Part shown: positions 16,860-64,000 of the stretch, in pieces
Layout of the letters: each line of letters begins with the position of its first letter
Position numbering within the stretch: position 1 is the stretch's first letter
NCBI GenBank assembly: GCA_946699065.1
Contig: CAMPDV010000194.1
Coordinates: 372,001 to 436,000 of the forward strand
Origin: Loxodes magnus
Lineage: Eukaryota; Ciliophora; Karyorelictea; Loxodida; Loxodidae
Length of the DNA: 64,000 nucleotides
Direction: 5' to 3'
The notes under the pieces: generated by a model
Told to the model about the DNA's origin: nothing
Database searches by the model: none
What the model saw: the letters and a program-made list of their open reading frames with translations, nothing else
Made by a program: the position numbers and the translations under genes

Positions 16860-19800
16860 ATGGGATGTAAAATATGCTGCTTGAAAGATGAATCTTAGGA
16901 GAATAGCGATAAGCAGATTCGAAATTTGTGTAAGAAAAATAAGCAGTAATATTAAGATTTTTCAGAAGAGGGAGTAAAGCTAGAAGTTCAGTAAACTTTA
17001 GCTGAGCAAGTGTAGAGATAAGTAGTTTAGCTATCTCTAAAAGTCAAAGAAGCAGCGAGAAATGGGGATAAATATGAAATGAGAAGCTTGAGGTAGTAGC
17101 TGTAGCAACTAGATTTGCTGAGACTTTATGAAGTGTAGAAAATTATAGATGATATGGTAGAAGCGATTGATGTGATATATATGAATGAGTACTTCACTGC
17201 TGAGCTAAAGAAGCTTATGAAAATGCTCAGAATATTAACAGCTAACTTTCTAGGGAAAAATAGAATTATGAGAGTGGAGAAATAATAACAGTACTAGGAA
17301 AAGCTTGAATACATCATTAACTTTTTGGTAAAACAAGGTAATAAGAGATTCGATTTTGGACTATAACTTGAACTAGAAATCATCAACCAAATTTTAAGCG
17401 AAACACCTAACAATGAGTTGGCTTCTAAATAGCTATTTGCATTGACTAAAGATATCTAAAATATAGCTCAAAACTAGGATGTAGTAACTGCTCTGAAGTT
17501 AATCTAATAAGGGTGGTAATATCTAGAAGTAAATTTGATAAATGCTAACTTCGTTGTATAAGTAGAAGAGATGTGGGCTGAGGTCTAAGCTCTAAAAGTA
17601 ATTAAAGAAACGACTTTTTAAATGAAGTTCTTCAATATCTCGACTGAGAAAATCTAAAAGCTGTTCTGAACTACTAAGTTATGGCAAGTTAAATAGTATG
17701 CCATAGAATGCTTATTCGATATTTATTAGCTATGCTAAGATGAAAGCATTTTAGATCTAATTTTAGATAGCAAAAATGAAAAAACGAGAGGATTAGTATA
17801 TATAATGGAAAAATAGGCTTAAGATTAGATAGGTAGTTCTAAGGAATACTGGAGGATCAAATAAACTTTCATATGGGAGCTGATGAAAAATAGAGATCAG
17901 TTAAGATGTAAGGATCTTCTTGAAACATACCAGTAAGACTAAAAGCTAGAATAACAAGTGAAAGTATTGATAAGAAATTAAGATTGGTATCTAAATGAAT
18001 GATATCAATGTGAATAGAAACGACTTGATATTGAACTGATTAAGCACATACAAAAAGTGAGGAACATAAAGTAGCAATAGAAGAAAAATAAAGGGGATGA
18101 TTTAATTTCACTCATTAAGAGAAACGAATATTTAGTCCCAATAAGATGCGCAGATTAAAAAGATGATCCTAAAAACTAGCGAGACGCTTTAGAAGTAATA
18201 AAAGAGTTTCTCCAGCCAGATGAAAGGTTTAACTCTGACAACTTATCAAACTAGCCTAGACACTTATTAATATTTGGAGACTCAGGTAGTGGCAAAACAA
18301 CTCTTGTTCGTAAACTTGAAGACATGCTATTAGAGGAGGAGAAAGTTTTTCCTATTTATATAAAACTAAATAACTAAGATAGCTAGAACCTTATCCAAGC
18401 CGAACTGGACTAAGAATACTTAAAAAAGCTAAACGATAAACTTAAGTAGACAACTGATAGTTAAGTAGTGTTCATCTTAGATGGCTATGATGAAATGAAG
18501 AAGCAAAAGAATATAGTGGAAAACGTGTTTACTAACTACCCCCAGTTTAAGGTAATTACAACCTCCAGATTTCAGTAGATAATTCAAAAATAGGGATTTG
18601 AAAAGCAGTTCATTCCTGAAGTTTTCACATCTCCTTAAGAAAAATACCTAAAAATAGTTTATATTCAACCTTTTGATGAAGGTACAGTAAAGCTATTCTT
18701 TGAACGTGTTCTAAGTCTTGATAAAGAGCTGTAAAAGAAATTGAACGTGAGGACAGGACTTGAATGCTACGAAATTATTAAAAAGCAGAGTAACTTAGTC
18801 GAACTGATAAAAAACCCTTTTATTCTCTGTCAAATAACTTAATTACTTACGAAGATAAAATCGAAGTGAAACAGGTACATAACATAAATAAAGCATATGA
18901 AGTAAGAAGAAAAAAGCAAGATGGCTTAATACTAAAATTAAGAAACTGTAAATCAGCTTGATTAGATAAACCTTAATCTAGTCACAGAAGAAGAATAGTA
19001 TGATATAAGTATGATATATAATGCCTTTCTATTAGAGATATTCAAAATGTAAAAATCTCATTTTCAAAAAACCTTAAAACAAGAGGCGTTTGTCGAAAGG
19101 TATATTTCAGAAATATATTCATTCTGTAAAGAGCTCTGCCTTTTATAGCTTCTAGAGGATAAAAGCACTTAAGGAACTTTTAACGAAGACTAGTTAGACT
19201 CATTGTTTAGCTAGAAGTACTATAAATAGTATAAGAACTAAGTAGTGCAATCTTTACCTATCTAAATCCAGAAAAGTGAAGGAAGGAAAGTTTATAACTG
19301 GTTCCATAAGACTATATTCGAGTTCTTCTAATGTATGAATCTTTTTGAGCCTGATTTGAAAAGTTGGTACCCTGAAGAAGACGATATGTTTTATAACGGT
19401 GAGTATACTATCAATGAGTAAAACTTTAACTCTTTCTCAATCTGTAACAAAATACCTGTGATAGATTTTTGTGTTGGAATACTTTAAAGCAAATCAGGGT
19501 AACAATATAACGCTATGATATAAAAACTTCTTCAACTTATTCAGAGTTCGAAAGGCAGAGAAAGCTAAAAAATAGCTGCTTCTAACGCTATAACTATTCT
19601 AGTCAAAGCAGGTTATTGTTTCATTGAAAAGGACTTTCAGGATATAAGGATAGAGAACGCTGATATACGAAATGGATTTTTCTTCAGATGCAACTTTACA
19701 AATAGTTAGATTAGAAACGCCAAGCTTCAGTATGTATTCATGTATCAATGCAACCTTAATGGGGTAGACTTACATGCAAGCTCTTTTGATACAAAGGAAT

Positions 19801-22352
19801 AGAAATCAATAAACTGACTTAACTATATAGAAGCCTTTAAAGTCTTTGGTGACACTGCTATAGTAGTATCCAGTAATAGCTAGCAAAACAAAATCAAGAT
19901 ACAATAAATCTAGAAGAAGCTAATAGAGGAGGATGTGTATTAGTTGGACGAAATTTATACTTTTGAATAAGAACTAAAGGAAGTGAAATGAATAATGGGA
20001 GCTAAGATAGTCAAACGCTAAACGGAGACTGTAGTTGCCCTTTTATAAACTTAAAATCAAATGCTCTAGGTAGTGTAGTTCGAGATAAACAGCTCTAACC
20101 CTTTTTAGTCCAAGATACTTAAGAATCAGATCGTTCAAATAGATCCTCAGAACTTATAAAAACAGCACAAAATATTTTAAAATAATCCACTTAACCGAAG
20201 CTATGACTTTTATAATAGCTGTATAATTGATGATTAAGGAGAGATATCGATAATAAGCCATTTAGTATAAAACGAAGAACTATAGATCTTAAAGCTAGAC
20301 TCAGAGATCAATGAGAGCTGTGAAAATCTTCAACTTAAGGGATATGAAAACGCTAAAGTGAAATACTATGGCATATGTGGGTATTTTGATATAATATTGG
20401 TAGATGAAGGAAAAGTAGATCAAAAGAAGCTCCTTAGCATAGGAAGTGAAGTAAATATCCTTGACTAAGGATATATATTAACGGTTTAGAACTTAGACTA
20501 GTAAAAAATAGCAGCTTCATTTATTCATTACGTTCAAATTTACGATCTAGTTAACAGTTCGTATAATTGTAGAGCAGAATTGCAGAGCTAAATACTCATT
20601 TCTGGTATTTCGGACTACATGTTTTCAACTAACTGGTAGAATTTACAGGTTTCTGAAATATAATCAGGAAGCTAAATCGAGAATATTACAGGATCTTGAA
20701 ATTGAATTTAAGGAGATTAGCTGTTATGATTAGCCTCTGAAGAGGATAAGCAACTTAAGGTAATCGATATCGATAAATTGAAAACCAGTTAGTCAATAAC
20801 TCTCCCTTAAATCTAATCTACTTTTAAAAACTCGAGTATACCCTTATATACCATCTCGAACGATCTGTAATATTATGCCTTTTAGGATATTCAATAAATG
20901 AGTAAAGCCAAGAAAAAAACGATTACAGTTATAAGAAATAATGGGAACATCCTTGCTAAATTTAGTATAGATATAAGAAAAGATTCTAATGACTCAGTAT
21001 TTTTGTAGTTTATCAATGACGAACTATTTGTAGTTAACTCATTTGAGATCTTAAAGTACAATATAGCAACAAGATATATATAGTACTGTAGTATAACCTA
21101 ATAAGAGTATGAAGTATAGAAGGTAAAATTTCCAGTACCTGGATATAGTAATCTAGTGATAAGGAAGAAAGGGGAAAATGAATATTTATTCTGATATCTG
21201 AACGTTTAAAAAGACTAATTTGGTAATATACTTAAAGTCTCATCGCTTAAGCCATTCGTTTGGAACACATTAATAAACAAGATCTTCATAATAGATACTG
21301 ATCCATTCTGTCTTCCTATATTCTTATCAGATTGGAGAAATTAGTATATTGCTGTTAATCAGTAGCATTTAGAGGAGGAAAAATTGAAACTAAAGACATT
21401 CTAAATGGAACTAAATTACCTTGGCTAAGAAGGGAAGAAATAAGAATTCTAGACTTAGGAATATTGGATTAGAAGATCTAGTCAGTTCTAGTATTTCTAT
21501 GAGTTTGATATGACTTAAGACTATTTCGTCTATATTGAGAAAGACTTGCTAGTTGTCCAAGAAATAGAAAACTAAGAAAACATCTATGAGTTCTCACTTT
21601 GTGATGAGATAAAATATGTTCAAGCTATTAATGACACACATTTGATCATACTATCAGGGTTTGAAGATAAGGAGTATAGAAGGGTGCAGATCTTTAACTT
21701 CAAAGAAGCTATCAAGCACTATAAAGAATACGATCAAAGCTGAATCCCTTATACTACATACGATGATTATGCTAATTTCAATCAAAAGCAGTATGCCTTT
21801 ATAAGATGGAATAAAGAGTTAGGCTACTTATTTTCTATTAATTATATCCCAGTTTGAATATATAAAATAACACCTACCAAGTTTGAACTAATTGGAAGTA
21901 TTGGAACAAGTGGATCGCTTATACTATAATAGTCATATGGAATAGTAAACAATATTAATTAGTCATTTTATGATCTTATGGAATCTGTTGGGTTTCTAAT
22001 TAATAGAGAGAAGTTAGATTATTCTATCTGTGAGTAAGGGCATATTTTAAAAATGATGATCAGAAATGAAGGGTAAGTTCTAAAGTGTGATAAATGTTAG
22101 GATAAAAATAAGTCTGTTTACTGGTATTGTAGCTAATGTAAATTATACGTCTGTGAAAAAGATCTGTACTAAAGATGGTAAGACTAGAAAAAGATTTCAA
22201 TTGAACAAATTCCAGCGAAGTTTCATGAAGAGTAGCAAAAAGAAGTAAGATGCTAGGAATGCAATAACTGTTATAAGCATAGTAAATTCTACTATGACTC
22301 TAAACAAGAAAAAGTTTATTGCGAGTTATGCGTAGAAGGGAAATCAACCTGA
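16860..22352 (+). CDS. Giant NACHT-type STAND NTPase with C-terminal zinc-finger module
   Basis: 1830 aa in one open frame with no intron needed. The chosen start gives M-G-C-K-I-C-C, a typical N-myristoylation plus palmitoylation signal, suggesting membrane attachment; the frame is also open upstream. Residues 1-460 are helical. A NACHT core follows: Walker A G-D-S-G-S-G-K-T-T near residue 473, Walker B V-F-I-L-D-G-Y-D-E near 541, sensor V-I-T-T-S-R, then K-N-P-F-I-L-C, as in the NACHT winged-helix start. Around residues 920-965 is a pentapeptide-like stretch (I-E-N-A-D-I-R-N-G-F-F-F-R-C-N-F). The long C-terminal half is beta-rich and may be a propeller. The end has paired C-x2-C clusters (C-D-K-C, C-S-Q-C, C-Q-E-C, C-E-L-C) like B-box or treble-clef zinc fingers. 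STAND proteins act as ligand-triggered switches in immunity and cell death. TGA 22350-22352 is taken as stop; a second TGA follows three codons on. Confidence 0.85.
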
Positions 22353-35815: not shown

Positions 35816-36677
35816 TTGTATAATGCCTTTTATATTTTAATAAATAAAAATTAAAAAATATGAAATAGATTCTAAACTTCTTCTACTTAAATTGCATACT
35901 ATTTGCTAATTATTCTTCTCATTGCTATAACTATTTAGTTAAGCTGATAAATGTTACTGTCGAAGGCTATCACTATTAATAGATAAACATCAAAAATGGT
36001 AAATATGATTTTAGCTTAAATTATATTTGTACCTTTGCTATTTCTAAAAGTATTTTTCTAGCTAGAGTCATAAACTAACTCATATATCATCTTCTAAATA
36101 AATAATCACTTTCTTAAATGTTTTAACTTTAAATGATATTATCTTTTCATTTGGTCTCTCATCTCTAAGGTATAAGTATCGATATTTATATATAAATCTT
36201 ATAAAATAAAATCTAAACTAAAGAAACCAGCTTAGTGTAAAAACCTTAATAAACTAAAAATTATTCAAAAATAAAAAAATAAAGGAAATAAAATAATCCT
36301 TTAAAAGAGCTAACCAATGCTATTTAATTATATCCTTCCTATTATAAGCTAAGCCTTTATAAATGACTAGCTTTAATTATTTTACAAAAGCTATTATAGT
36401 TCCATTATTGATTCTATTAAACTTCTAAATGATAGACTAATATATATAGATTGACAATAGTTGATTATATATCCATTTAAATAAGTTTAACAACTAAATG
36501 ATTTATTAAGTTAATGTGTTGATTCTTAATTTAATAAAGGTTGAGAATAATAGATTTAAGCTAGTATAATAACTATCTAATTATAAATAGCTTATTATTT
36601 TCTTAAGGTTTTCCTTATATTTAAACATTAATAGATTTATTTTATTTGCTTTATTTTCATCTTTAATTATAATAAAG
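35816..36677. other. Intergenic, no gene recognised
   Basis: AT-rich spacer between two plus-strand genes. No motif recognised. Confidence 0.4.
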
Positions 36678-38940
36678 ATGACTCAATCTAGCAGGTGCAA
36701 TTCATGCTACTGTAATTTCGACTCTTAAATAGTCATTCTCGTAACCCTTCCTTGCAAACATAAAGTTTGCTAAAATTGTGCTCTTGAAGAATATTAAAAA
36801 GAAGGTTCTAACCAGTGCTCAAAAATAAAGTGCAAAACAATTTCCTTCGATGAGCCATAAAGTTTAATAAGCTAAAAATGTATATCAAGTGAAAGCAAAT
36901 AAGAGTACAAATAGCTTCATCTTGAAGAAACTAAAATTGAGCTATCTTTATAACAAAAACCAAAATTAATAAAAGTTAAGATTGTAACTGAAAATGAAGA
37001 AGAAATAAGCTTAACAGTAGAGGAAGGAGAAACAATTGAATAACTTAAATAAAAAATAGAAAAATTAGAAGGAATCGACCCCGATTTTTATGAACTTTAT
37101 AAAGAATAAGAAAAAATAGATAGTCAACATAGAATAAATAAGATAGAGAATGAAGAAGAAATTTAGTTAAATCTAATCTTAAAAAATTGTAATTAATTCA
37201 AATTTAAGGATGTAAGAAATAAGATAGATATAATAGGTAAAAAATAAAGATAGAAAGTAATTAATAATAAATTAGTTTATGAGATAATGAGAAAATAATA
37301 TGGTAAATTACATAATAATAGAGGGTAAAATAATAATAAAATTAGAAAGTAATAAATAATCAAAATAGGAGAAAGTAAGATCATTAAAAAAAAAAGGTGA
37401 AAACGATTTAAAGCAAAGTTAAGAATAAATGTAAAGGAAGTAAATTCTAAAAAAGAATGTAATATATTAAAAAAGGGAGTAATACTTTAAAGCTAGGAAG
37501 TAATAAAATTAAATTTAAGAATGTAATAAAATGAAAAAGAATGTAAAAATACTAAGAAAGGAAGTAAAAATCAAATATAGAATGTAAAAAATAAAGAAGA
37601 TTGTTAAGTAATAATATTAAGTCGGTAATCTAACAAATCCAGAAAGTAATTATTTAATGTATAGCGAGTAAAACAATAAATAAAGGGGGTAAAAATTGAA
37701 ATCAGAGGGTATTTCTATTTAAAATAGAATGTAAGATAGTTTAAATAATTATAGATGGTAAGACATTTAAATATTTATAGAACGTAAGATATTTAAAATA
37801 TTTATAGATGGTAAGATATTATAACTATTTATAGATGGTAAGATGCTTAAATATTTATAGATCGTAAGATATTTTAACTATTTATAGAATGTAAGATATT
37901 TTAATATTTGTAGGCGGTAAGTAATTTAAAATATTTATAGATGGTAAGATATTTAAATATCTATAGAAGGTAAGATACTATAAATATTAATAGTTGGCAA
38001 TATATTTAAAAAAATTTTAGAATGTAAGATATTTAAAATATTTATAGCTAGTAAGATAATTAAAATTTTTTTAGACAGTAAGTTCCTTTAAATATTAATA
38101 GGGAGTAATATATTTTAAATTTTTATAGAGAGAATGATATTTAAAATATATATAGGGAGTGAGATACTTAAAGTATTTATAGATAGTAAGATTTTTTAAA
38201 TATTTGTAGATCGTAAGATATTTTTATTTATAGTTTGTATTTAAAAACTATTATAGCTAGTATTTTTCTTATTATTAGAGAGTATTAATTACCTCAGGCG
38301 GTAAGAGTCTATTTTAGGTATCTTTTTAATTTTGGATTGTAAGAAATAATTATTAGATGGTATTGATTTTATTGAAGCTTGTATTTATTTATATAGTTTG
38401 TAATTTTTAAGTTCAGTTAGTAATAAAGTGATATAGAATGTAATATTAGTAATATTTATAGGGGGTAATAGTTAATTTTAAAAGAAAGTAATTACTAATA
38501 TTAGGTAATAACTTATTATAGAATGTTATTGTAATGATTGATATTAAACAGATTTATTTTACTAGGTAGCTATTTTTCTATTTTAGGATGTAAAGAATTT
38601 ATCATATGCAAGTTTATTTATTATAGAGTGTAATTCTTTATTTAAGCCGATGTGGAAGTAACATTTAACTCTTATTAAATATTTATCTTAATTAATCTTT
38701 TATTAGTCATTTATTTTTATTTAGATACTTTATTTGTTTAAAAGTTTCTAAACATATTAGCAATATATTTTAAGATCTTTAATAGCTAATTTTCTTTCTT
38801 TTCCTTTTATTAATGAAAAAGTGATTCCTATTAAAGAGATGTTGGGATTAATAATTTAGGTAATATTTTTATTATAGCTAGAGCTTTTTTATGTATTAGG
38901 TTTCTTTATAATAGTTCTTAGATTCTTAAAATATGTTTGA
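36678..38940 (+). CDS. RING-finger/ubiquitin-like protein whose 3' part is an intron array
   Basis: ATG 36678-36680 starts M-T-Q-S-S-R-C-N-S-C-Y-C. Residues 7-55 form a C3HC4-type RING: C-N-S-C, P-C-K-H-K-V-C-Q-N-C and Q-C-S-K-I-K-C, as in E3 ubiquitin ligases. Residues about 97-165 read as a ubiquitin-like fold: K-V-K-I-V-T-E-N, T-V-E-E-G-E-T-I-E-Q-L-K-Q-K-I-E and D-P-D-F-Y-E-L-Y-K-E. The first exon would end exactly on a codon boundary at 37211 (178 codons). It is followed by the array of intron-like units to 38646. From CCG at 38647 a hydrophobic 97-codon frame runs to TGA 38938-38940, in phase with exon 1. If nothing is spliced, the protein stops at TGA 37398-37400 (240 aa). RING and Ubl calls are firm; the 3' structure is inference. 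Confidence 0.75.
37212..38646 (+). repeat. Tandem array of more than 40 mini-intron-like units with 3-nt spacers
   Basis: From 37212 the sequence resolves into consecutive units beginning GTA (mostly GTAA/GTAAG) and ending TAG, AAG or CAG, mostly 16-24 nt long. The spacer is almost always exactly 3 nt, and 6, 9 or 27 nt in the first few. Example at about 37,777: TAG-AAC-GTAAG...TATAG-ATG-GTAAG...TATAG-ATG-GTAAG. Units in the middle (37,720-38,230) resemble each other (GTAAGATATTTAAATATTTATAG type). Those on the flanks share little but the two ends and the spacing. Unit length and boundary bases match the 19-nt casein kinase intron. All spacers are multiples of 3, so a reading frame entering in phase 0 is kept. 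A few units have GC or GA instead of GT, or are longer. Confidence 0.85.
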
Positions 38941-39083
38941 AGTGTTAATTTTATATCCTTTATATTTATAGCTTTAGTTTTTTTTGAATAGAAAGATAAT
39001 ATGTAATTATCTAATCTCCTCTCTATAAAATATGTGCTTAATTAATAATATGATTAAAAAAGATATTTAAAAAAAATGTTATT

Positions 39084-39363
39084 ATAGAGTGCGTAGTCCT
39101 ACAATAGGGCGCAGCTCTTTAAAAAAGTAAATTTATAAGTCCTTCAGTCTCCAATATTCCCAAAACATTCTCTCTTCTAATTGTGGGTAAGGTTGCGATT
39201 CAAAATCTCCAAAGCACAGGACGCCAACAGGCGATTACAGGTAGATTTCCAACCCATGATGAAGAGATTAGTCAGGTCCAACATTTAGAACAGGTTGCTT
39301 CAACATCAGTTCATCTCTGGGGAATTCTTCTCTCTACTTTAAAAGATAAGATCCACCCTATTT
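39084..39363 (-). repeat. Diverged SINE-like copy with the shared terminal hairpin
   Basis: The left end (ATTATAGAGTGCGTAG...GCGCAGCTCTTTAAAA, 39,084-39,125) is a variant of the hairpin that ends all the SINE-like copies and the LINE. Inside is one diverged copy of the CCAAAGCA-CAGGA...CCATGATGAAG module. The 60-aa plus-strand ORF at 39183 is chance. It lies just after the RING gene. Confidence 0.7.
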
Positions 39364-39680
39364 AAATAAAATTATAAAATATAATAAATTAGCTTAATTA
39401 ATATTATTATTCTTATTATAAAAAATACTTAAATGTTTTTCTTTTTCATTTCTAATATTGTAACACACTGTATCTAAAACTATATAGCCTATCTATTACA
39501 AGCCAAAACTATTTTATAGTATTACTAACTCTAATTCATACTATATTAATATCAATTATCCACTTTTTTACTTTATTAACTCTAATATATTACTATCCTT
39601 AATACCTAACATTTTCCTATATCTTCAGAATTTTAATTTCTTAATAATAATAGTAAACTAAAAGTAATTAAAGTTTAGCA
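39364..39680. other. AT-rich spacer
   Basis: Spacer between a SINE-like copy and the zinc-knuckle ORF1 element. It is the 3' side of the latter. No gene seen. Confidence 0.4.
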
Positions 39681-40463
39681 TTCCCTGGATTTTCAACCAG
39701 GTTTTTGCTACCATTTTTTTAGCGTGGATGGATACCACGCCATTTTTTTATGTGGATGGAACCACAGAGGATCTTCTGTCTTTTATGTGAATAGTTTTCT
39801 CTTGTAAATCCCTGTTTAGGTTATTCAGAGTCTGCTGAGTATGCTTAACGTTCTTTATTGTTCTTTTATCTAAATTTATCTTCACTAATCGCAATTTTGT
39901 AATAAGTGTCACTTTGATTTGCAATAATAGCATTGTTTGCCTTGTTTTTTCTTGAATCTCTTCAGAAATACTTTTTTTTCAAGTTAATCGATTCTTTTGA
40001 TTAAATCTATATTAATCTTTTAGTCATTCTATTTTTCTTAAACGTTTGCTTATGTAGAAACATTTTCGATAATCATATTTTGTTCTTGCTTAAAATTCGA
40101 TTGAGATTATTCATATAGTTACTATTCCGTGACTAGATTATTCTAAATCAATTATCGTCTAATTATTAGAAGCTCGTTATTTTAATCTTCGATAGTATTC
40201 ATTAGTTCTCTTATTTTTTCCCCTTGGTTGTAAATTGTTTCCTAATAATTTTGTATTATTGTTTTCATTTGGTCAAGCTATATTTATATTTCGGATTATT
40301 TTTATACCTTTACTGGATTCGATTCTATTGTTCCGATTATGATTTTTCCTTCAGAGGAGGAACTTGATTTATCTTCTTCTTGTTGTTGTCTCTGCATTTG
40401 TTTCGCAGCTTTCCTTTTTGTGTTCTTAATTTGGTTTTTGGAAAGGCGAATAGATTATTCCAT
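39681..40463 (-). CDS. Retroelement ORF1/gag-like protein with coiled coil and CCHC zinc knuckle
   Basis: ATG 40461-40463 opens M-E-Q-S-I-R-L-S-K-N-Q-I-K-N-T-K-R-K-A-A, and the frame stays open for 261 codons when TAR=Q and TGA=W. A Ser/Gln-rich region is followed by a long coiled coil (I-R-E-L-M-N-T-I-E-D-Q-N-N-E-L-L-I-I; R-I-D-Q-L-E-K-K-V). Then comes a CCHC knuckle C-Y-Y-C-K-S-K-W-H-L-L-Q-N-C in which the W is TGA. This layout is that of LINE ORF1 or gag nucleic-acid-binding proteins. A paralogue at 62,058-62,854 is conserved at protein level through G-I-Y-K-x-K-L-F. No reverse transcriptase is attached. The end is set where the structured repeat begins; no TGA stop was seen. The 61-aa minus ORF at 39748 is a shadow. 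Confidence 0.75.
39684..39765. repeat. Series of three short hairpins downstream of ORF1
   Basis: Three stem-loops follow one another, separated by runs of T (plus strand): CCTGG...CCAGG (39684-39701), GCGTGG...CCACGC (39722-39740) and GTGG...CCAC (39752-39765). The paralogous element at 62,110-62,154 has CGTGG...CCACG and GTGG...CCAC at the same places with different loops, so the stems look preserved. Confidence 0.65.
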
Positions 40464-43400
40464 TTTTTTTAATAATTTTAATTTCTTAAATCTTATAAAA
40501 TTATTAAACATTACATGCTAAAAATTGCCTATTAAATGGTATGAAGATGCGGTTAATGTACTCTAAAAATAATTGATTTGTATTGTAAATACTTGATGCT
40601 AAACTAATAATTAATGTCTTTAATCAGAGTAATTTATTGAACTGACTTTTTTAAGAGAGTTATCCATTTCTACAAGCATTTCAAATCTTAAGTACAATGA
40701 AAACAGATTTTTATCTTATTATATAAAAAGATTTTAATAATGACTATGTAGAATAAAATAAAATCAGTTACTAATAAATGTTGCCTATAAGTGTAATTGA
40801 TAAGTACAACTTGACTATGACATGAAGATTTTGGGAGTGTAATATAGCATCATATAAAAGTAAAAATTATAAAAAGTATAAATAAGTAATAAATCTGTTC
40901 TAGTTAAGTCTTTTTAAAAGTTAATGGCATTAGATCTGCTAAATAAAACTAAATAACATTATAAAATGCTTAATTTATGCTAAGAAAATGTAAATTATCA
41001 CTCAAAAAAGTTGTGCTATCTAATCCATTATAGAGTTAACTTGAGATACTCTTAAATTAATTTCAAAACTTTATAAATTGGATTATAAAAGCAGCCATTC
41101 ATAGATGAATAACTTATTAAAATGCTAAAAATTATAAATAAAATTATTAAACCTATTCCAAAGTAAAACGACAAGCAATCTTAAATACGAATTTTGAAAA
41201 AGATGTATAAAAAATGTTTTCGAAAAATCTAACTATAAGATCTTAAGTCTCGGATTTAAACGATAAAATTAAAACTTTGCTATAAGCCGCGATAAAGATA
41301 AATTAGAAAATAACTAATTAAAAAGAAAATCTGTAGCAAATAGGAAATGTAAGAGGTAAATTTCTAACTAAAGTATATAAAAGCTAGACAAAAATAATAT
41401 ACATTATATTAATAATTAATAATCTAGAAAAGTTAAAACAATAAAGACCCTATGGATATTGAGAAGTATCTAAAATAAGATTAAACCTTTAAGTAAATAA
41501 GAATATTTAGAAAATAATTCTGCAAGAAGAAAGGATATCTAATAAAACAATGCTAACAGTTTAAAATAAGTAAATAATGGAAGAAAAAAGATTTGAGGAA
41601 AATTGAGTTAATAAATTGCATGTGAGAAGGTAAAATTTATATATTAAAATATTATAAAGGAATGGAATTAAATGAATCAATAACAGAAGTAAGCAATAGA
41701 ATAATAAGGAAAATATTGAAAGGAGCTACAGAACGTATAGAACTTGAAGAGGGTTAAAAGGACTGATTTTCTAGATGAAAATCGAGCTGAAGAAAAGAAG
41801 AACAAGAAATCTATGAGTAACTTTGCAGGAAGCAGCAGAAATTTAACTAGAACAAATAAAATTTAAATTAAAGAAGTTAATCTTATAAGCAAAGCACTCT
41901 CTCTAATTACTTTTCGTTATTATTAATATTAAAAAAATTTTAGAAGTAAAAAAATAGATAAATTTTCTTACACTTAAAATATATAATGAACTAGCTAAAA
42001 AACTATTATTACTTACCTCAAGTCACTTAACAAAATAATCCTTAACAGCAAACAATAGTAGAATATATTTAAATAAGATTAAAATAAAAAACTCGAATAT
42101 CAATAAATCATTTTTCCAAAAAAAAAGAATAAAAATAAAACTCAAAATATTTTTAAAATGTTGAAGGGAAATATGAGAAAAGAAAAAAAGCTTTAATCCT
42201 AAAATAAAAGAGTTATAAGACAAAAAATCGATAAAAAAATTTAAATGCAAGTAATCTAAAATAAAACATTAAATTTATTTTATAAAAATCCAAAATCCCT
42301 TTAACTTATAAAAAATAATAAAAAATATAACAAAAAAATAATTATAAAGATTAATTTATATTGAAATTTCAAATCTTTAAGATAAAAACCTTAAAAAAAG
42401 AAAAATATAAAGAGTAAAAATTGTATTTTTAATAGAATAAAAATAATTTTTTATATCGAAAATTAAAAAATAAATAAAAATAAATCTGAAAAGTAAACGA
42501 AAGTGTATGACAAAAACTTTATCTAGAAAAGAGAAAGTAAGAAAAAAAGAGGACCATGATAAAATAAAATTATATGAAAAAAAGACAAAGAAAAATAAAA
42601 GAGAAAAGTTTTTGCAAAATTTTTCTTTAAATTTTCAATTTCGCACAAAATCTTACATTTTTTTCTTCTGTCTAAATTTTTGCTAATTCATTAATCAGCT
42701 ATTTTCAATTAAAAATAATTTTCGCTAATTTTTTTAAATATTTTAATTTAGGCTTAATTATTTGGGAAAAAAGTGTTTTTTTACATATTTTTAAAATGAA
42801 TAATGAATTAAAAAATTGTTTATTAGAAAATTTAACAAAAGTTTAAAAAATGATATTTATATAGAATAAATTTAACTCTTTTTTAATTTTTTTTTTAATT
42901 TTTAAAGCAAAATCTTTATTTAAAATTATTTAAATTTTTTTTGATTATTGAATTAATGTTTTTAATTAAAGATTTTGTAATTTGGAATAAAGAATTAATT
43001 TTTTATAATATGATAAATTTTATAATTTAATTACAATATTTCTAATTTTTTTATCGAAAAAAATGTAAACTTATTGAAACGAATGATAAGGTCATTTGAA
43101 AAAATACTTATTTTTTAAACAACATTTTAATTACAAATTTTTATAAATATTTCTTTTTATGTAATTTCAAATAAAAAAGCATTAACTCAAAAAACAGTTA
43201 AATTATAAAAATACTTGAAATAAGATTTCGTCTTATCTACTAAATTTATGATGCTTTTTTCTTTATTTTTAATTTATAAAAAATATGGAAAATTTAATAA
43301 CATTAAAAAAAGTTAATGTTTCTTTAACTTATTATAAATATATTTTATACTTAAAACATGTAAAGAAATAATTAAAATAATAATAATATCAAAAATTTAT

Positions 43401-43614: not shown

Positions 43615-44125
43615 ATAAATAAATAAATAAATTTGATTATAGAGCGCGTAGCACTCTCATTGGTGCGCAGCTCTTTAAAAAAAAATGTTTCATACTGACA
43701 AGAATGTTTCTTACTGATAAAATTATCAGATACTGATAAACCTTGTTCAATACTGGTATAATTATTCAGTACTGATAAAAATGTTCAATACTGATACAAT
43801 TTAAGAATACTCGTAATCTTTAATACTTGCTGGAGGTCCAAGGACATGGCAGGATTGTGTCTCATTGCATCACCAAAGCAGAGGACGACATATGTCAATT
43901 ATAGGTACTTAAATTCCCCACCTCTGATGAAGCTCGCAATATTATTTCTTTTTCGTTCCAGAATTAAAAATTATAATAAGTCATATCCGGAGGTCAAACT
44001 AGCAGATGTCTTGAGTCCAATCCAAAGCAGAGGAAGGTATAAAGTCGGTTAAGGTACTTAACTTCCCCAACTTCTGATGAAGATGACCTTGTTGCTCACC
44101 TTCGAACAATGAGCAAAGCAATTTA
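43615..44125 (-). repeat. SINE-like element, copy A (inverted relative to copies B and C)
   Basis: Reading on the minus strand the element runs from TTCGAAGG (near 44,105) to a terminal hairpin (CGCACCAATGAGAGTGC at its core) followed by GCTCTATAATCAAA and a (TTTA)n tail ending near 43,615. It holds two tandem modules with CAGAGG...CCTCTG stems and a run of GATA-AAA/ACTG-type short repeats before the hairpin. It matches copies B and C over its full 490 bp. The 68-aa plus-strand ORF at 43846 lies inside it and is not a gene. Confidence 0.85.
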
Positions 44126-45382: not shown

Positions 45383-45855
45383 AATTGAAATTAATTAAAT
45401 ATTATGAGCTCATTAGGCTATCATTTTTTGAAATCATATTGAAATAAAAATTTATATAGTAAAATAACTAAAAGATATAATCTGCTTAAGCTTTTATTAC
45501 TTTTTAGAATAATTTTAATCTATAAATTTATCTTTCGCATTTTATAAATTTGATAGAAATTGTTTATAAATGAGATATATCAATAAGTCTCAAAAGCTCA
45601 TTAAAAATAGAAAAAATTTAATGAGTGTTTTTATAATAAAAATTATTTTTTATTCCTTTTTTATTGCTAATAGATTTCATTTGATTTACATCTATTTTAA
45701 AGTTTATCTTTTTTGTCTTATATTTATAAAATTAGTATTTTAAGACTGTTTTAGAAATAAAATTTATTAAATATTTTATAAGAAATAAGCCTAAATTAAT
45801 ATTTTAAGGAACTAATCGTATAAGATTATTTTTATTAAATAAATAAAATAAAAAA
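45383..45855. other. AT-rich spacer
   Basis: Spacer between the RNA candidate and tRNA-Lys. No gene seen. Confidence 0.45.
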
Positions 45856-45928
45856 CGCCCAACGTGGGGCTCGAACCCACGACCACCAGATTAAGAGTCT
45901 GACGCTCTACCGACTGAGCTAGCCGGAC
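45856..45928 (-). tRNA. tRNA-Lys (anticodon CTT)
   Basis: 73 nt on the minus strand. Acceptor GTCCGGC pairs with GTTGGGC (with G-T pairs), D arm TAGCTCAGTCGGTAGAGC, anticodon loop CTCTTAA with CTT at 45893-45895, T arm CGTGGGTTCGAGCCCCACG, discriminator G. No intron and no encoded CCA. Boxes A and B are canonical. The transcript's 3' flank is T-rich (TTTTTATTTTATTT), suitable for Pol III termination. Confidence 0.97.
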
Positions 45929-47243
45929 TTTATTTAATATAATTTAGCTTCTTTAAATATTTGATTAGCCTTTAAGATTCTATTTACTTATTTATATCAT
46001 AAACTAGTGTAATTTGATAATGACTTCTCAAGAGATAGAAAAAGAACTAGCTTGGTAAACAAATTATAAGAAAACCAATACAAGCATCTAATCAATCTTA
46101 ATCAATTGCTTTATGATTATTTTTAATATTTGAGAATAGATAAAAATACTAACTTATTTTTCTTTTTCGACATTAGATATGTTCTTGACAATGAGGTCTT
46201 GAATTGAATATAAATGAAAATAATTTTCAAGTCACTTTTACATTTAAAAAAGAGATAGCGATTTTAGTTTGATATTAGATTTTAAATTTATAAGTGACTA
46301 TTATTATTATATACCAAGTTAAAATTATTTACAGTCTACATATAGGTAAAAGATATAAAGCCTAGAATGAATAATATATATTAAATAATTAAAGAGCTAT
46401 TAATATTTAATTTCTTATAATTTCTAGCATTATATTATTTTATTTTCACATTACATTTATTAGATGTATATTTGTTAATTAGCTTATTAAAGTATAAAAT
46501 TTTTTATCCTTTGATTAAATGTAATGAGATTACTCTAAAACTTTATTCTAGTACTAAATTTAAGATGATTGTTTATATACTTCTTACTCTCATTTTCTAA
46601 AATTTCAGCATTGTTTTTATTTTAATAATTCTTGCACAAATGAACATTTTTTATCCTCGTTATTATCATTGTCAAAATTCTGAAAATCAAGCCATCTTAA
46701 AATATAAAATCATAATTAGATTCTAACTAAGATTAAAAAAGATGACTTTGAATTAATAATTAAGATATAAATTTCTATTTGAAATAAAAGCATAAAAAAT
46801 TATTTTACCAGATAGTTTGATAAGTAAATATTGCTTTGCTGCAAAAGGCAAAACTAAAATAAAAATGAAATAATTCTCATTTAATTTTAACTTAAATTCT
46901 GATAGATGAAATTTAATATTAGTGATATCATTCGAACAAAATAAAATTCTCTTAGATAAGTTCTACAATTTTTATTCATAGAACTATAAAACGAAAATTA
47001 AATATAAAAATATAAATTTATAGTATTTTATTATTTAAAAGAGCTATCATTTAAATTCTATGACTATCTTATTTTGTCTGATCTTAAGAACATAAATATA
47101 GTTGCAATGCTATTCATGTAAAATATAAAAATCAATTATGATAAATTATATGATTAAGAGTATGAAAGAATTTTAAAGACAATAGTTTGAGTTAAGATTT
47201 TTAATTTTAAGGAGTTATTTAGTTTTAATAATTACTAAAAAGT
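45929..47243. other. AT-rich, no gene recognised
   Basis: A short plus-strand frame at 46,020 (M-T-S-Q-E-I-E-K-E-L-A-W) has a possible 16-nt GT...AG unit after it and could be a first exon, but nothing follows convincingly. The remainder is AT-rich. Confidence 0.35.
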
Positions 47244-52443: not shown

Positions 52444-52957
52444 TTGTTCGAAGGTGAACAACAAGGTCATCTTCATCAGAGGTTGGGGAAGTTAAGTACC
52501 CATAATCGACTTTATGTCTTCCTCTGCTTTGGTTTGGCCTCGAGACATAAGATTCTTAGACCTTCGACGTTGGCTTGACTTGGTTTCGTTTATTTTTAAT
52601 ACTGGAACGAAAAAGAAATAATATTGCGAGCTTCATCAGAGGTGGGAATTTAAATACCCATAATTGACACATGTCTTTCTCCTTTGGTGATGCAATGAGA
52701 CACAATCCTGCCATGTCCTTGGACCTCCAGCAAGTATTAAAGATTACGAGTATTCTAAAATTATATCAGTATTGAACATTTTTATCAGTACTGAATAATT
52801 ATACCAGTATTGAACAAGGTTTATCAGTATCTGATAATTTTATCAGTAAGAAACATTCTTGTCAGCATGAAACATTTTTTTTTTAAAGAGCTGCGCACCA
52901 ACGAGGTGCTACGCGCTCTATAATCAAATTTATTTATTTATTTATTTATTTATTTAA
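52444..52957 (+). repeat. SINE-like element, copy B
   Basis: Plus orientation, nearly identical to copy C over about 490 bp. It starts GTTCGAAGGTGAAC, has two CTTCATCAGAGGT modules (about 52,470 and 52,632), the run of short TCAGTA-type repeats (52,760-52,860), and ends with hairpin core GCGCACCAACGAGGTGC, GCTCTATAATCAAA and (TTTA)n. Confidence 0.85.
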
Positions 52958-59762: not shown

Positions 59763-60260
59763 ATTGTTCGAAGGTTAGCAACAAGGTCATCTTCATCAGA
59801 GGTTGGGGAAGTTAAGTACCCATAATCGACTTTATGTCTTCCTCTGCTTTGGTTTGGCCTCGAGACATAAGATTCTTAGACCTTCGACGTTGGCTTGACT
59901 TGGTTTCGTTTATTTTTAATACTGGAACGAAAAAGAAATAATATTGCGAGCTTCATCAGAGGTGGGAATTTAAGTACCCATAATTGACATATGTCGTCCT
60001 CTGCTTTGGTGATGCAATGAGACACAATCCTGCCATGTCCTTGGACCTCCAACAAGTAGAAAAGATTACGAGTATTCTTAAATTATATCAGTATTGAACA
60101 TTTTTATCAGTACTGAATAATTATACCAGTATTGAACAAGGTTTATCAGTATCTGATAATTTTATCAGTAACAAACATTCTTGTCAGTATGAAACATTTT
60201 TTAAAGAGCTGCGCACCAATGAGAGTGCTACGCGCTCTATAATCAAATTTATTTATTTAT
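59763..60260 (+). repeat. SINE-like element, copy C
   Basis: Plus orientation, full length: GTTCGAAGGTTAGC start, two CAGAGG...CCTCTG modules, short TCAGTA-type repeats at 60,085-60,200, hairpin core GCGCACCAATGAGAGTGC at 60,208-60,226, GCTCTATAATCAAA and (TTTA)n. It abuts the 5' end of the second LINE fragment in opposite orientation and lies 54 bp past the stop codon of the following gene. Confidence 0.88.
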
Positions 60261-61990: not shown

Positions 61991-62057
61991 TAAAATAATT
62001 TATTTACCATAGATGGATTAAATTATAATAATAATAATAATATACTTAAAGTTAGTA

Positions 62058-62854
62058 GAGTTTTGCATTCTCTGGAATTGCGACCGGTTCCTGCGGACAG
62101 TTTTTTTAACGTGGGTGTGATCCACGACCTTTTTATTAAGTGGAAGGTTACCACTGTAACCGTTCAAGTGGTCTTGCAAAAAGCTTTTATTTGTAGATCC
62201 CTGTTGGAGTTATTCATTGTTTATTGAGTTGTCTCCATGTTCTTTTCTGCTCTTATTCGTTTATTTTCTTTCATTATCAACAGTTTTTTAAAATATGTTG
62301 ATTTGATTTGCAACATCAACAAAGTTTGTATTATTGTCTTTATTTCGTTCTTTTTTATGATAATTTATTTTCTATATTTTCTAATCTTTTAATGAAACTT
62401 GTAGCAATCATTTCTTTTTCTGGATTCAATTCTGTTTTTAATTCTATTGGTATTTTTTCTATTTCAATTTTTGTGTAGTATTTAAAATTTTATTATGATT
62501 AAGTTCAGAGTTATTCTTCTGTTATCAATTTGCTACAAATAAGTTATCTTCTAAGTATTAGTAATTCGTTGTTCTAATCTTCTATGTTACTCATTAGTTC
62601 CCGTATTTTTCGCCTAAGTTGTAAGTTGTTTCTTCATAATTTGAGATTACTTTTTACATTTGGTCTAATTAAATTTAAAGTTTTTTATTAGTTTCGTTTT
62701 TAGGTTAATTTATCTCTATTTATCCTACCATAACTTTACCTTCTGAAGAAGAGCTTGACTCCTCCTATTGTTATTATTTTTTCTACATTTCTTTTGCCGC
62801 TTTTCTCTTTAGGTTTCTAAGTTAATTTTTTGAGAGTCGAAGAGATTAATCCAT
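62058..62854 (-). pseudogene. ORF1/gag-like paralogue of the element at 39.7-40.5 kb, one frameshift
   Basis: ATG 62852-62854 starts M-D-Q-S-L-R-L-S-K-N-Q-L-R-N-L-K-R-K-A-A, aligned with the first copy from its first residue. The poly-Ser segment, E-G-K-V-M-V-G and the coiled coil (E-L-M-S-N-I-E-D-Q-N-N-E-L-L-I-L) are present. The frame changes once near E-K/R-E-L (about 62,600). Zinc knuckle: C-W-C-C-K-S-N-Q-H-I-L-K-N-C near 62,310, then W-I-T-P-T-G-I-Y-K-Q-K-L-F. Downstream hairpins are as in the first copy. Divergence is substantial at DNA level but much lower at protein level, so both descend from coding elements. Confidence 0.7.
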
Positions 62855-64000
62855 TTTTTTTAACCTTATAGTAGATGGATTAAATTATTAGTAATTAGAT
62901 TTCCACGACATATCTTAATGTGAAGTTCTCAATAAGAATTCTGAAAAATTTACTAGGATGTAACATCTTGAAAACTATATTAGTAGCTTTGGATGTAATT
63001 AAGCTAAATATTAAGTCTATGCTTTTGAAGGATTTAAATATACAGTGAAGTAAATTTTGGTACTAAAAGAGTTTATGAAGCAAATAAGAATATTTGATTA
63101 TCTTAAAGCAAGATAAACAGAAAGAGCTTTTCTTCAGCTATTTTGGTTTATAAATTTACTAATTTCTCATACATGGAGACAGAAACTATCTGGATACTCA
63201 ACTTTATAACTTTAGATAAATAAAAGTATGTGGACAAAAGTTCTGAGATTATAGCCAACTTTGAAACATTTTTAGCCAGTTTAAAACTATAAATTAGTAT
63301 AATAATTTAGCAATGAAAGTCAACTCAAGACTTTTAATTTTAGTAAAAGTTAGCATATTTTAGATAAGAAGTTTAATGTAATAACCAAAGTAAACTTATA
63401 TTTAAATTCTTAATATATGAAGCTAATTATTAATTTTTACTATCTATATCAATAAAAGGGATTTAAATCTTCGTTGTAAATATAGTCATTATTATGGTTT
63501 TCTCTATTAAGATATGCTATTAAGTTATTCATTTGAAATCAAAGATACAAATTAAATTTTTTAAATTTTACGAAAAAGAAGTCTTAATGGTAAAAAATAT
63601 CCTTAAATGATATTTCCATAAATAATTATTGTATATTTTTGATAAAAACTTAAAATGCTAAGTCTTAGAATTATAGAAGTATTTTTAGTTCTATAGATAT
63701 AATCCAAATTATTTAAAGTATTATATTACTTTAAAGAAGATAATTAATATATTTAATTAATCTTCCTTAAACATCAAAAGGGAATATTAATTTTTAAAGA
63801 AAGCTTATAAAATTAGAATGCAAATTTCAGATGTTATGAGATGTTTCCCTTCTCTATCAACTTTAAATATAGAAATGATGTAATAGTTAAATTGAAACGA
63901 AAGTTGCTTAAATCATTACTTTTGCCTAGTTTTTTTAATTCTTAAAAGTAAAAACAGATTTAAACTAGTTATTATTTCTTTATAAAAGATTATAATTATT
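62855..64000. other. AT-rich, no gene recognised
   Basis: The last 1.1 kb contains no frame or repeat that I can support. Confidence 0.4.

Follow-up and report, generated by a model that had tools for sequence, protein, structure and literature searches.

Micro-exon genes of Schistosoma carry many small exons whose lengths are multiples of three, and the skipping of such exons would keep the reading frame. In Drosophila, the gene homothorax reportedly contains an exon of 3 bp. An exon of a single nucleotide occurs in APC11 of Arabidopsis (PMC4674806). In the karyorelict ciliate Loxodes magnus, which has a macronuclear assembly of 706 Mb, it is the introns that are extremely short. According to the passages of PMC11441545 that deal with introns, those defined by RNA-seq have a mean length of 19.3 nt and a mode of 17 nt, 93% measure 25 nt or less, and lengths below 16 nt are negligible. 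The same source gives 15–16 nt for the introns of heterotrich ciliates and 33.5% for the GC content of coding sequence in L. magnus. Depletion of introns divisible by three (3n) is a genome-wide tendency in this species and no defining rule. The source also reports UGA as Trp when it lies far enough from the poly-A tail, so that the codon serves as Trp or stop. The window considered here is the whole 64,000-nt stretch of L. magnus DNA that was analysed (contig CAMPDV010000194.1, positions 372,001 to 436,000, forward strand). It contains one copy of a multicopy RING-Ubl gene, in which an array of short GT...AG units lies between the ubiquitin-like (Ubl) domain and a hydrophobic tail. The array is read here, with a probability of roughly 0.8, as a series of ultrashort phase-0 spliceosomal introns with exons of one codon between them.

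The array lies at positions 37212–38646 on the forward strand and resolves into 55 GT(GC)...AG introns in 1.4 kb. This division is a curated parse, made by eye and by a program that prefers multiples of three. In it 52 of the 55 introns measure 16–24 nt, which fits the RNA-seq-defined introns of the species, and the remaining three measure 34, 35 and 37 nt. Forty-six of the 54 internal exons are exactly 3 nt long, the other eight being 6, 9, 9, 21, 21, 24, 27 and 30 nt. An earlier note, made from the letters alone, had described more than 40 mini-introns with one-codon exons at these coordinates, in a RING-Ubl gene, and had likened their size to that of introns elsewhere in the window. Its limits, its unit number and its size range all hold, and its intron interpretation gains support from the comparisons between copies and across the genome given below. 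Because the parse program prefers multiples of three, the exon list gives no independent support for phase. The ends are also set in part by the parse, which demands AG and mostly GT; 54 of the 55 introns are GT-AG and one is GC-AG. When the single further intron at 38860–38877 is included, the donors are GTAAG (19), GTAAT (17), GTAAA (10), GTATT (6), GTTAA (2), GTGAG (1) and GCAAT (1), and the acceptor is, by requirement, AG in 56 of 56. Acceptors other than TAG occur in 17 of the 55 array introns.

The sequence AGNNNGTA occurs 46 times in the region, compared with a mean of 3.57 (standard deviation 1.82, maximum 11) in 1000 dinucleotide shuffles, and AG-to-GTA distances of 2, 4 and 5 nt do not occur in the array at all. 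The longest strict chain comprises 15 units, whereas chains in 200 shuffles reach at most three. The rest of the window, on both strands, holds no strict chain of more than two units, or four at most when spacers of 3, 6, 9 or 12 nt are admitted. The GC content of the one-codon exons is 30–33% versus 5–13% in intron interiors (Fisher P 8e-4, 1e-7 and 0.012 for the left, central and right blocks).

The one-codon spacing is held throughout the genome. In the assembly (705,730,643 bases, 7843 contigs), three consecutive TAG-NNN-GTAAG junctions match 13,290 times on the forward and 12,653 times on the reverse strand (25,943 in all), compared with 282 and 271 matches for a reversed-pattern control. 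The three-junction pattern with a 2-nt spacer matches 0 times forward and once in reverse (control 0). With a 4-nt spacer, a laxer three-junction pattern gives 37 and 19 matches versus 108 and 92 for its reversed control. These counts are dominated by homogenised arrays, so that units are counted rather than events, and three consecutive shifted junctions are expected to be rarer than a single one. At C165:49830-93399 and C7738:1452-17670 the 4-nt-spacer matches often recur about every 2.02 kb, suggesting a 2-kb tandem repeat.

The window gene is one of some 159–188 family copies, whole or partial, a range taken from the genome matches of an exon-1 signature (81 forward and 78 reverse) and of a right-flank signature (81 and 107), each with a control of 0; the array is accordingly not unique. 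Nine other copies were read and all carry the array or remains of it. The first four array loci (L030–L033) are all paralogues of the window gene, each preceded, in the same orientation, by the RING-Ubl exon. Among five further copies (L034–L038), three have the array well kept, L035 is strongly diverged and L036 is interrupted by insertions. All nine loci belong to one gene family. The repeated segment exceeds the gene, since blastn homology extends, with insertions, from at least 32.3 kb to 42.6 kb of the window, and some copies are tandem, every 19–25 kb (contigs C77 and C279). Within this segment, the stretches on either side of 39084–40656 are far less distant from each other in L034; the ~1.6 kb between them in the window is probably a mobile insertion, since part of it (39642–40470) is related through L040 to 62023–62861. 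Other unit bodies, of 32 nt or of mixed shorter lengths, show the same TAG-NNN-GTAAG layout at C10:232638-232787, C67:772314-772394 and C41:1151204-1151271. Their triplets are similar, and they possibly represent other gene families with intron arrays; near-identical introns at unrelated sites in many genes would be the mark of introners (mobile introns).

Exon 1 is constrained: over the 28 pairs of eight copies the proportion of nonsynonymous differences (pN) is 0.114 and that of synonymous differences (pS) 0.229, a ratio of 0.50. Four copies were scanned against Pfam. The ubiquitin domain PF00240 passes its cut-off of 25.4 bits in the window copy (26.8 bits, with RING below the cut-off) and in L033, and the RING domain PF00097 passes its cut-off of 21 in L034 (26.6 bits) and L030 (25.7 bits). 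Both pass together in none, so that the identification as a RING-Ubl gene stands on different copies. A protein database search with exon 1 or with the spliced downstream part returned no homologues, and Pfam gave nothing near a cut-off for the downstream part. Downstream of the array, L030, L031, L034 and L037 have in common a 58-residue hydrophobic tail whose phase-0 frame starts where the last intron stops and closes at one shared TGA. The earlier note had described a 97-codon frame behind the array, in the same phase and ending at TGA. That frame is shifted relative to the four paralogues and is probably not the true tail of the family; the sequence comparison suggests a shifted frame of a decaying tail.

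The aligned counts cover eight copies and leave out L035 (diverged) and L036 (disrupted). The 22 left-flank units align across these copies, except that L038 is without units 4 and 5 and that several copies leave unit 1 ambiguous. Over 14 consecutive left units, 112 of 112 units could be parsed with the GT and AG that the parser requires, and pair differences at GT and at AG are 0 of 784, partly by construction. Intron length varies in nine of these 14 units, drifting by 1–4 nt, while the triplets are always 3 nt; 100 of the 102 pairwise intron length differences are not multiples of three. A deletion in L038 that takes most of intron 4 and all of introns 5 and 6 preserves the frame in the spliced reading, the exon sum of this copy being 111 (both by eye). 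The 27-nt exon of the left flank is 27 nt in all eight copies, and its in-frame TGA, present in seven and replaced by TAT in L030, fits a reading as Trp. In the window the exon path contains TGAs at 37288–37290, in this exon, and at 38135–38137, in the 30-nt exon, which are tolerable only because UGA at a distance from the poly-A tail means Trp in this organism. The left one-codon exons of L034 and L032 spell the peptide KNKECWKNIGNILKQEMN, from which L030, L031, L033, L037 and L038 depart at few positions, and the window copy is the outlier with KRKENGENNENISKRGRN. For this comparison an alignment shift was undone by hand, with AAA assigned to unit 11 of the paralogues and TGA to unit 10 of L033. 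The triplet pN/pS is 0.51 for 18 left units and 0.43–0.55 for left and right units together, the latter leaving out some triplets of the right flank (AAT in the window and three other copies, a further one in L033, and one deleted in L032). On this weak test the array codons look about as constrained as exon 1. In the central blocks of the fetched copies, 252 of 253 junctions keep the standard 7 nt, and the exception, in L030, is a deletion within the donor and not the triplet. Unit bodies there deviate in length in 16 of 256 cases over the eight copies, a contrast that is weak alone, given the lengths of triplet and body. A phase-blind parse, in which 582 of 651 exons are 3n (544 of 3 nt; 36 of 1 nt, probably where AGN triplets offer a nearer AG) and exon sums are not 3n in seven of eight copies, is not used as evidence in either direction. 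Taken as sequence comparisons, the eight-copy alignment and the genome-wide spacing counts make the predicted introns a well supported reading.

A number of observations weigh on the other side. The triplets are no more conserved than intron interiors across all pairs of the 14-unit run (164 of 1176, or 0.139, versus 424 of 3853, or 0.110), the excess of insertions and deletions in introns over triplets is not significant alone (P 0.18), and neutrality of the triplets is not rejected when three single pairs are tested by permutation (P 0.06–0.25). Outside that run, unit 6 has a GC donor in L034 and has lost its acceptor in L032, leaving a 5-nt exon. Twenty-one of the 55 array introns are 3n, so that the array, unlike the genome, is not depleted of them. 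The right flank at 38488–38589 is in frame only by way of the 34–37 nt introns or of zero-length exons, and in the paralogues the frame through it is putative. The codon composition of the central block is odd (I, G, N, W, M, R, L), with 42 of 315 triplets reading Trp, mostly as TGA. Some copies are visibly damaged: donors are altered in numbers in L038, L032 is truncated, and L036 is broken by insertions. The tail is frame-shifted in the window copy and in L033 and truncated in L032; in L038 it is cut by the end of the locus.

Such damage could mean that most copies are dead or unspliced and the array a relic, with transcripts reading into it and terminating prematurely and the pattern a record of past function. 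The many near-identical copies within larger repeats would suit this explanation, as would the shifted tail of the window copy and the state of L032, L036 and L038. However, the 3-nt spacing is invariant genome-wide, splice ends are preserved in the aligned units, exon 1 retains its pN/pS of 0.50, and four copies have a tail in common. A family consisting largely of relics is therefore considered unlikely.

It is also conceivable that one long intron, or a few, take up the entire array and are excised either recursively, in the manner of a ratchet, or from the first donor to the last acceptor, with triplets that never appear in mRNA. All units are in phase 0, so any donor-acceptor pair would keep the frame, and the right flank offers possible zero-length exons (AG|GT) at 38317/38318 and 38504/38505. 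Removal of this kind has no need for 3-nt triplets, yet the genome holds one 2-nt triple against 25,943 of 3 nt, and the GC content of the triplets is exon-like. In addition, 93% of L. magnus introns are 25 nt or shorter, in the account of PMC11441545, which makes this quite improbable. That same size distribution makes skips of 50 nt look unlikely; the huge set of isoforms by unit skipping imagined in the earlier note is unsupported.

The central block of the window comprises 18 units, one of which lacks a donor. Unit numbers elsewhere were estimated from 61 pairs of left and right signatures, drawn from about 100 each of the 159 and 188 places. Among the matches listed, the window has the minimum of 18, the quartiles are 43 and 72 with a median of 55, and the highest estimates are 116, 126, 137, 261, 467 and 503, the largest of which may include insertions. 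On C306 and C894 the left and right flank signatures of one copy are ~14 kb apart, indicating either several hundred central units or an insertion. The central intron has one 24-nt consensus in all eight copies analysed, while the triplets differ. Measured against each copy's own consensus, and for 24-nt units only, mismatches in interiors and triplets are 0.0% (identical) and 46% in L037 (57 units), 0.9% and 48% in L034 (43 units), 1.1% and 45% in L031 (47 units), 1.9% and 53% in L038 (73 units), 4% and 42% in L032 (34 units), 6% and 46% in L030 (26 units), 15% and 43% in the window copy (14 units), and 16% and 51% in L033 (21 units). With its 23-nt units included and one gapped column dropped, the window block has 32 interior mismatches in 270 positions versus 25 triplet mismatches in 54 (Fisher P 4e-8). 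Twelve triplets (ATT, AAT, TGA, ATG, GGA, AGA, ATA, TTG, ATC, AGG, GGG, TGG) account for 280 of 315, and TAN is absent.

Taken alone, this block could be read as an unspliced coding repeat of nine codons (X-VRYFKYLQ) with one hypervariable residue, given that the 24-nt units are open in phase 0 and that mainly the first codon varies. Bodies one nucleotide short, which would shift the frame, are present in 13 of 256 units over the eight copies and in seven of 29 in L030, and the flank units of 16–20 nt are unreadable in this manner, leaving a coding repeat very improbable. Excision from DNA of the units as germline-limited internal eliminated sequences is hardly credible: ciliates do excise short elements from DNA, but the units have GT...AG ends with 17 of 55 acceptors other than TAG where TA boundaries would be expected, the array is present in an assembly of macronuclear size, and canonical elements of this kind were not found in L. 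magnus according to the passages of PMC11441545 that treat them. Chance origin is rejected by the shuffle counts and chain lengths, and an assembly artefact at a single locus by the nine further loci that carry the array or its remains. A pure minisatellite free of splicing constraint is rejected by the counts of 3-nt versus 2-nt and 4-nt junctions. As a general feature of genes in this genome such arrays were not seen, the longest chain being three in 20 sampled 10-kb stretches together with eight ubiquitin loci (451,456 strand-bases).

In the preferred reading, that of ultrashort spliced introns, a spliceosome mostly working on introns of 16–25 nt would remove the units one by one by intron definition. 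Each step would lengthen the upstream exon by a codon, and no 3-nt exon would ever need definition alone. Every unit would then be spliced and its codon translated, and the product would presumably be a membrane-anchored RING E3 ligase with a linker of variable length. The flanking introns would be old, and the central block would have grown as a 27-bp minisatellite of intron plus codon, in which the gain or loss of a unit changes one residue and leaves the frame untouched. A unit neutral to the frame could expand freely to dozens, perhaps hundreds, of introns. The loss of a donor in a 24-nt unit would add nine codons in frame (window 38129–38158) and the loss of an acceptor could merge neighbouring introns (as in L032, with a 5-nt deletion), so that single failures may be tolerated. 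The earlier statement that simple minisatellite growth cannot explain the pattern is not supported: the central block does grow by 27-bp units, and the flanks are unlike such growth, the right-flank introns being no more similar to one another than shuffled introns.

The hypervariability of the triplets (42–53%), next to near-identical introns in four copies, is unexplained by tandem duplication alone, which would ordinarily preserve introns and codons to the same degree. The divergence of flank introns between copies is close to that of upstream DNA (0.129 versus 0.140), so full constraint on every intron base offers no easy answer. A possible, quite tentative reading is that introns multiply or are homogenised apart from the codons, through the copying of introns alone (by reverse splicing or by gene conversion confined to introns) or through targeted diversification of the codons. 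If so, the gene would be an array that generates diversity from cassettes of one codon, or would document the spread of introns, one codon after another, along a coding sequence. The features of the window gene are collected below.

Table. Features of the RING-Ubl gene and its surroundings in the window; introns and exons as predicted.
Feature	Position	Strand	Basis
Exon 1, RING finger and ubiquitin-like domain, 178 aa, TAA/TAG read as Gln	36678..37211	+	Translation, Pfam
Left flank, 22 A-rich introns (16-22 nt) with exons mainly of one codon	37212..37730	+	Parse; one-to-one alignment with paralogues, 8 copies
27-nt exon, in-frame TGA 37288-37290 read as Trp	37276..37302	+	8-copy alignment, codon by eye
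Central 27-bp minisatellite, 18 units (17 with splice donor), intron of 23-24 nt plus one codon, consensus GTAAGATATTTTAAATATTTATAG-NNN	37731..38212	+	TRF (Tandem Repeats Finder), alignment
GC-AG variant unit	37997..38020	+	Sequence
Lost-donor unit (GA replacing GT), 24-nt body staying in-frame coding, 30-nt exon with TGA read as Trp	38129..38158	+	Sequence
Right flank, 16 T-rich introns, one-codon exons	38213..38646	+	Parse; aligned with four paralogues
Region of the hydrophobic tail, including an 18-nt intron (38860-38877); frame shifted here relative to four paralogues	38647..38940	+	Alignment, translations
Larger repeated segment common to other copies, interrupted by insertions	36270..42607	.	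blastn

Several other features were observed in the window and in the genome. Positions 1–2553 hold a long tandem repeat array with a period of 141 bp (~17.5 copies at 104–2535 by TRF). Three short arrays of a related 38–39 bp repeat (TATCAGTATTGAACA...) lie at 43682–43801, 52749–52848 and 60081–60201, and sequence resembling this repeat is found in an insertion within the L036 array. An open frame at 18870–19814 encodes pentapeptide repeats (PF00805). A tRNA-Lys (CTT) is located at 45856–45928 on the reverse strand; nearby, 45795–45837 resembles 38057–38099 on the other strand (79% over 43 bp) and 45837–45961 resembles L040 (89% over 125 bp). Elsewhere in the genome, ubiquitin genes form long tandem clusters, often spaced ~1,055–1,061 bp apart (C32:1232544-1288873, C537, C930, C1577 and C2553).

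If spliced, the genes of this family contain from 55 introns in 1.4 kb, as in the window, to perhaps several hundred in several kilobases, with exons of one codon. On general knowledge of splicing, this would lie beyond exon definition and probably beyond simultaneous spliceosome assembly, and would be a natural test of intron definition, splicing order and splicing fidelity. A frame-neutral satellite of intron plus codon suggests a route by which introns could multiply harmlessly, and the presence in a single genome of ~160–190 copies that differ in array length could allow a quantitative study of how introns are gained and lost.

The element is of a known kind, the ultrashort spliceosomal intron, in an arrangement for which no precedent was found: the open-licence literature searched describes single microexons of 1–3 nt and intron gain by duplication, and no such array. 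The ultrashort introns of L. magnus and the heterotrichs resemble the array in length range, in GT-AG ends and in a code where UGA is Trp or stop. However, the published L. magnus introns lie in ordinary genes, and the main-text passages of PMC11441545 on introns and exons describe no array of introns or one-codon exons. Microexons of 1–3 nt are similar in showing that splicing can handle exons no longer than a codon, and differ in being single, whereas dozens follow consecutively here. The micro-exon genes of Schistosoma differ in having larger exons, long introns and no known tandem unit of intron plus codon. Intron gain by tandem duplication or copying likewise multiplies introns, while here the unit is a complete intron plus one codon, repeated dozens of times. 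With minisatellites and satellites the array has in common its head-to-tail 27-bp units, their variable number and their homogenisation within a copy. Unlike in minisatellites, the unit boundaries are predicted splice sites, the spacer is one codon, and the layout is kept even where the right-flank units have diverged beyond recognition.

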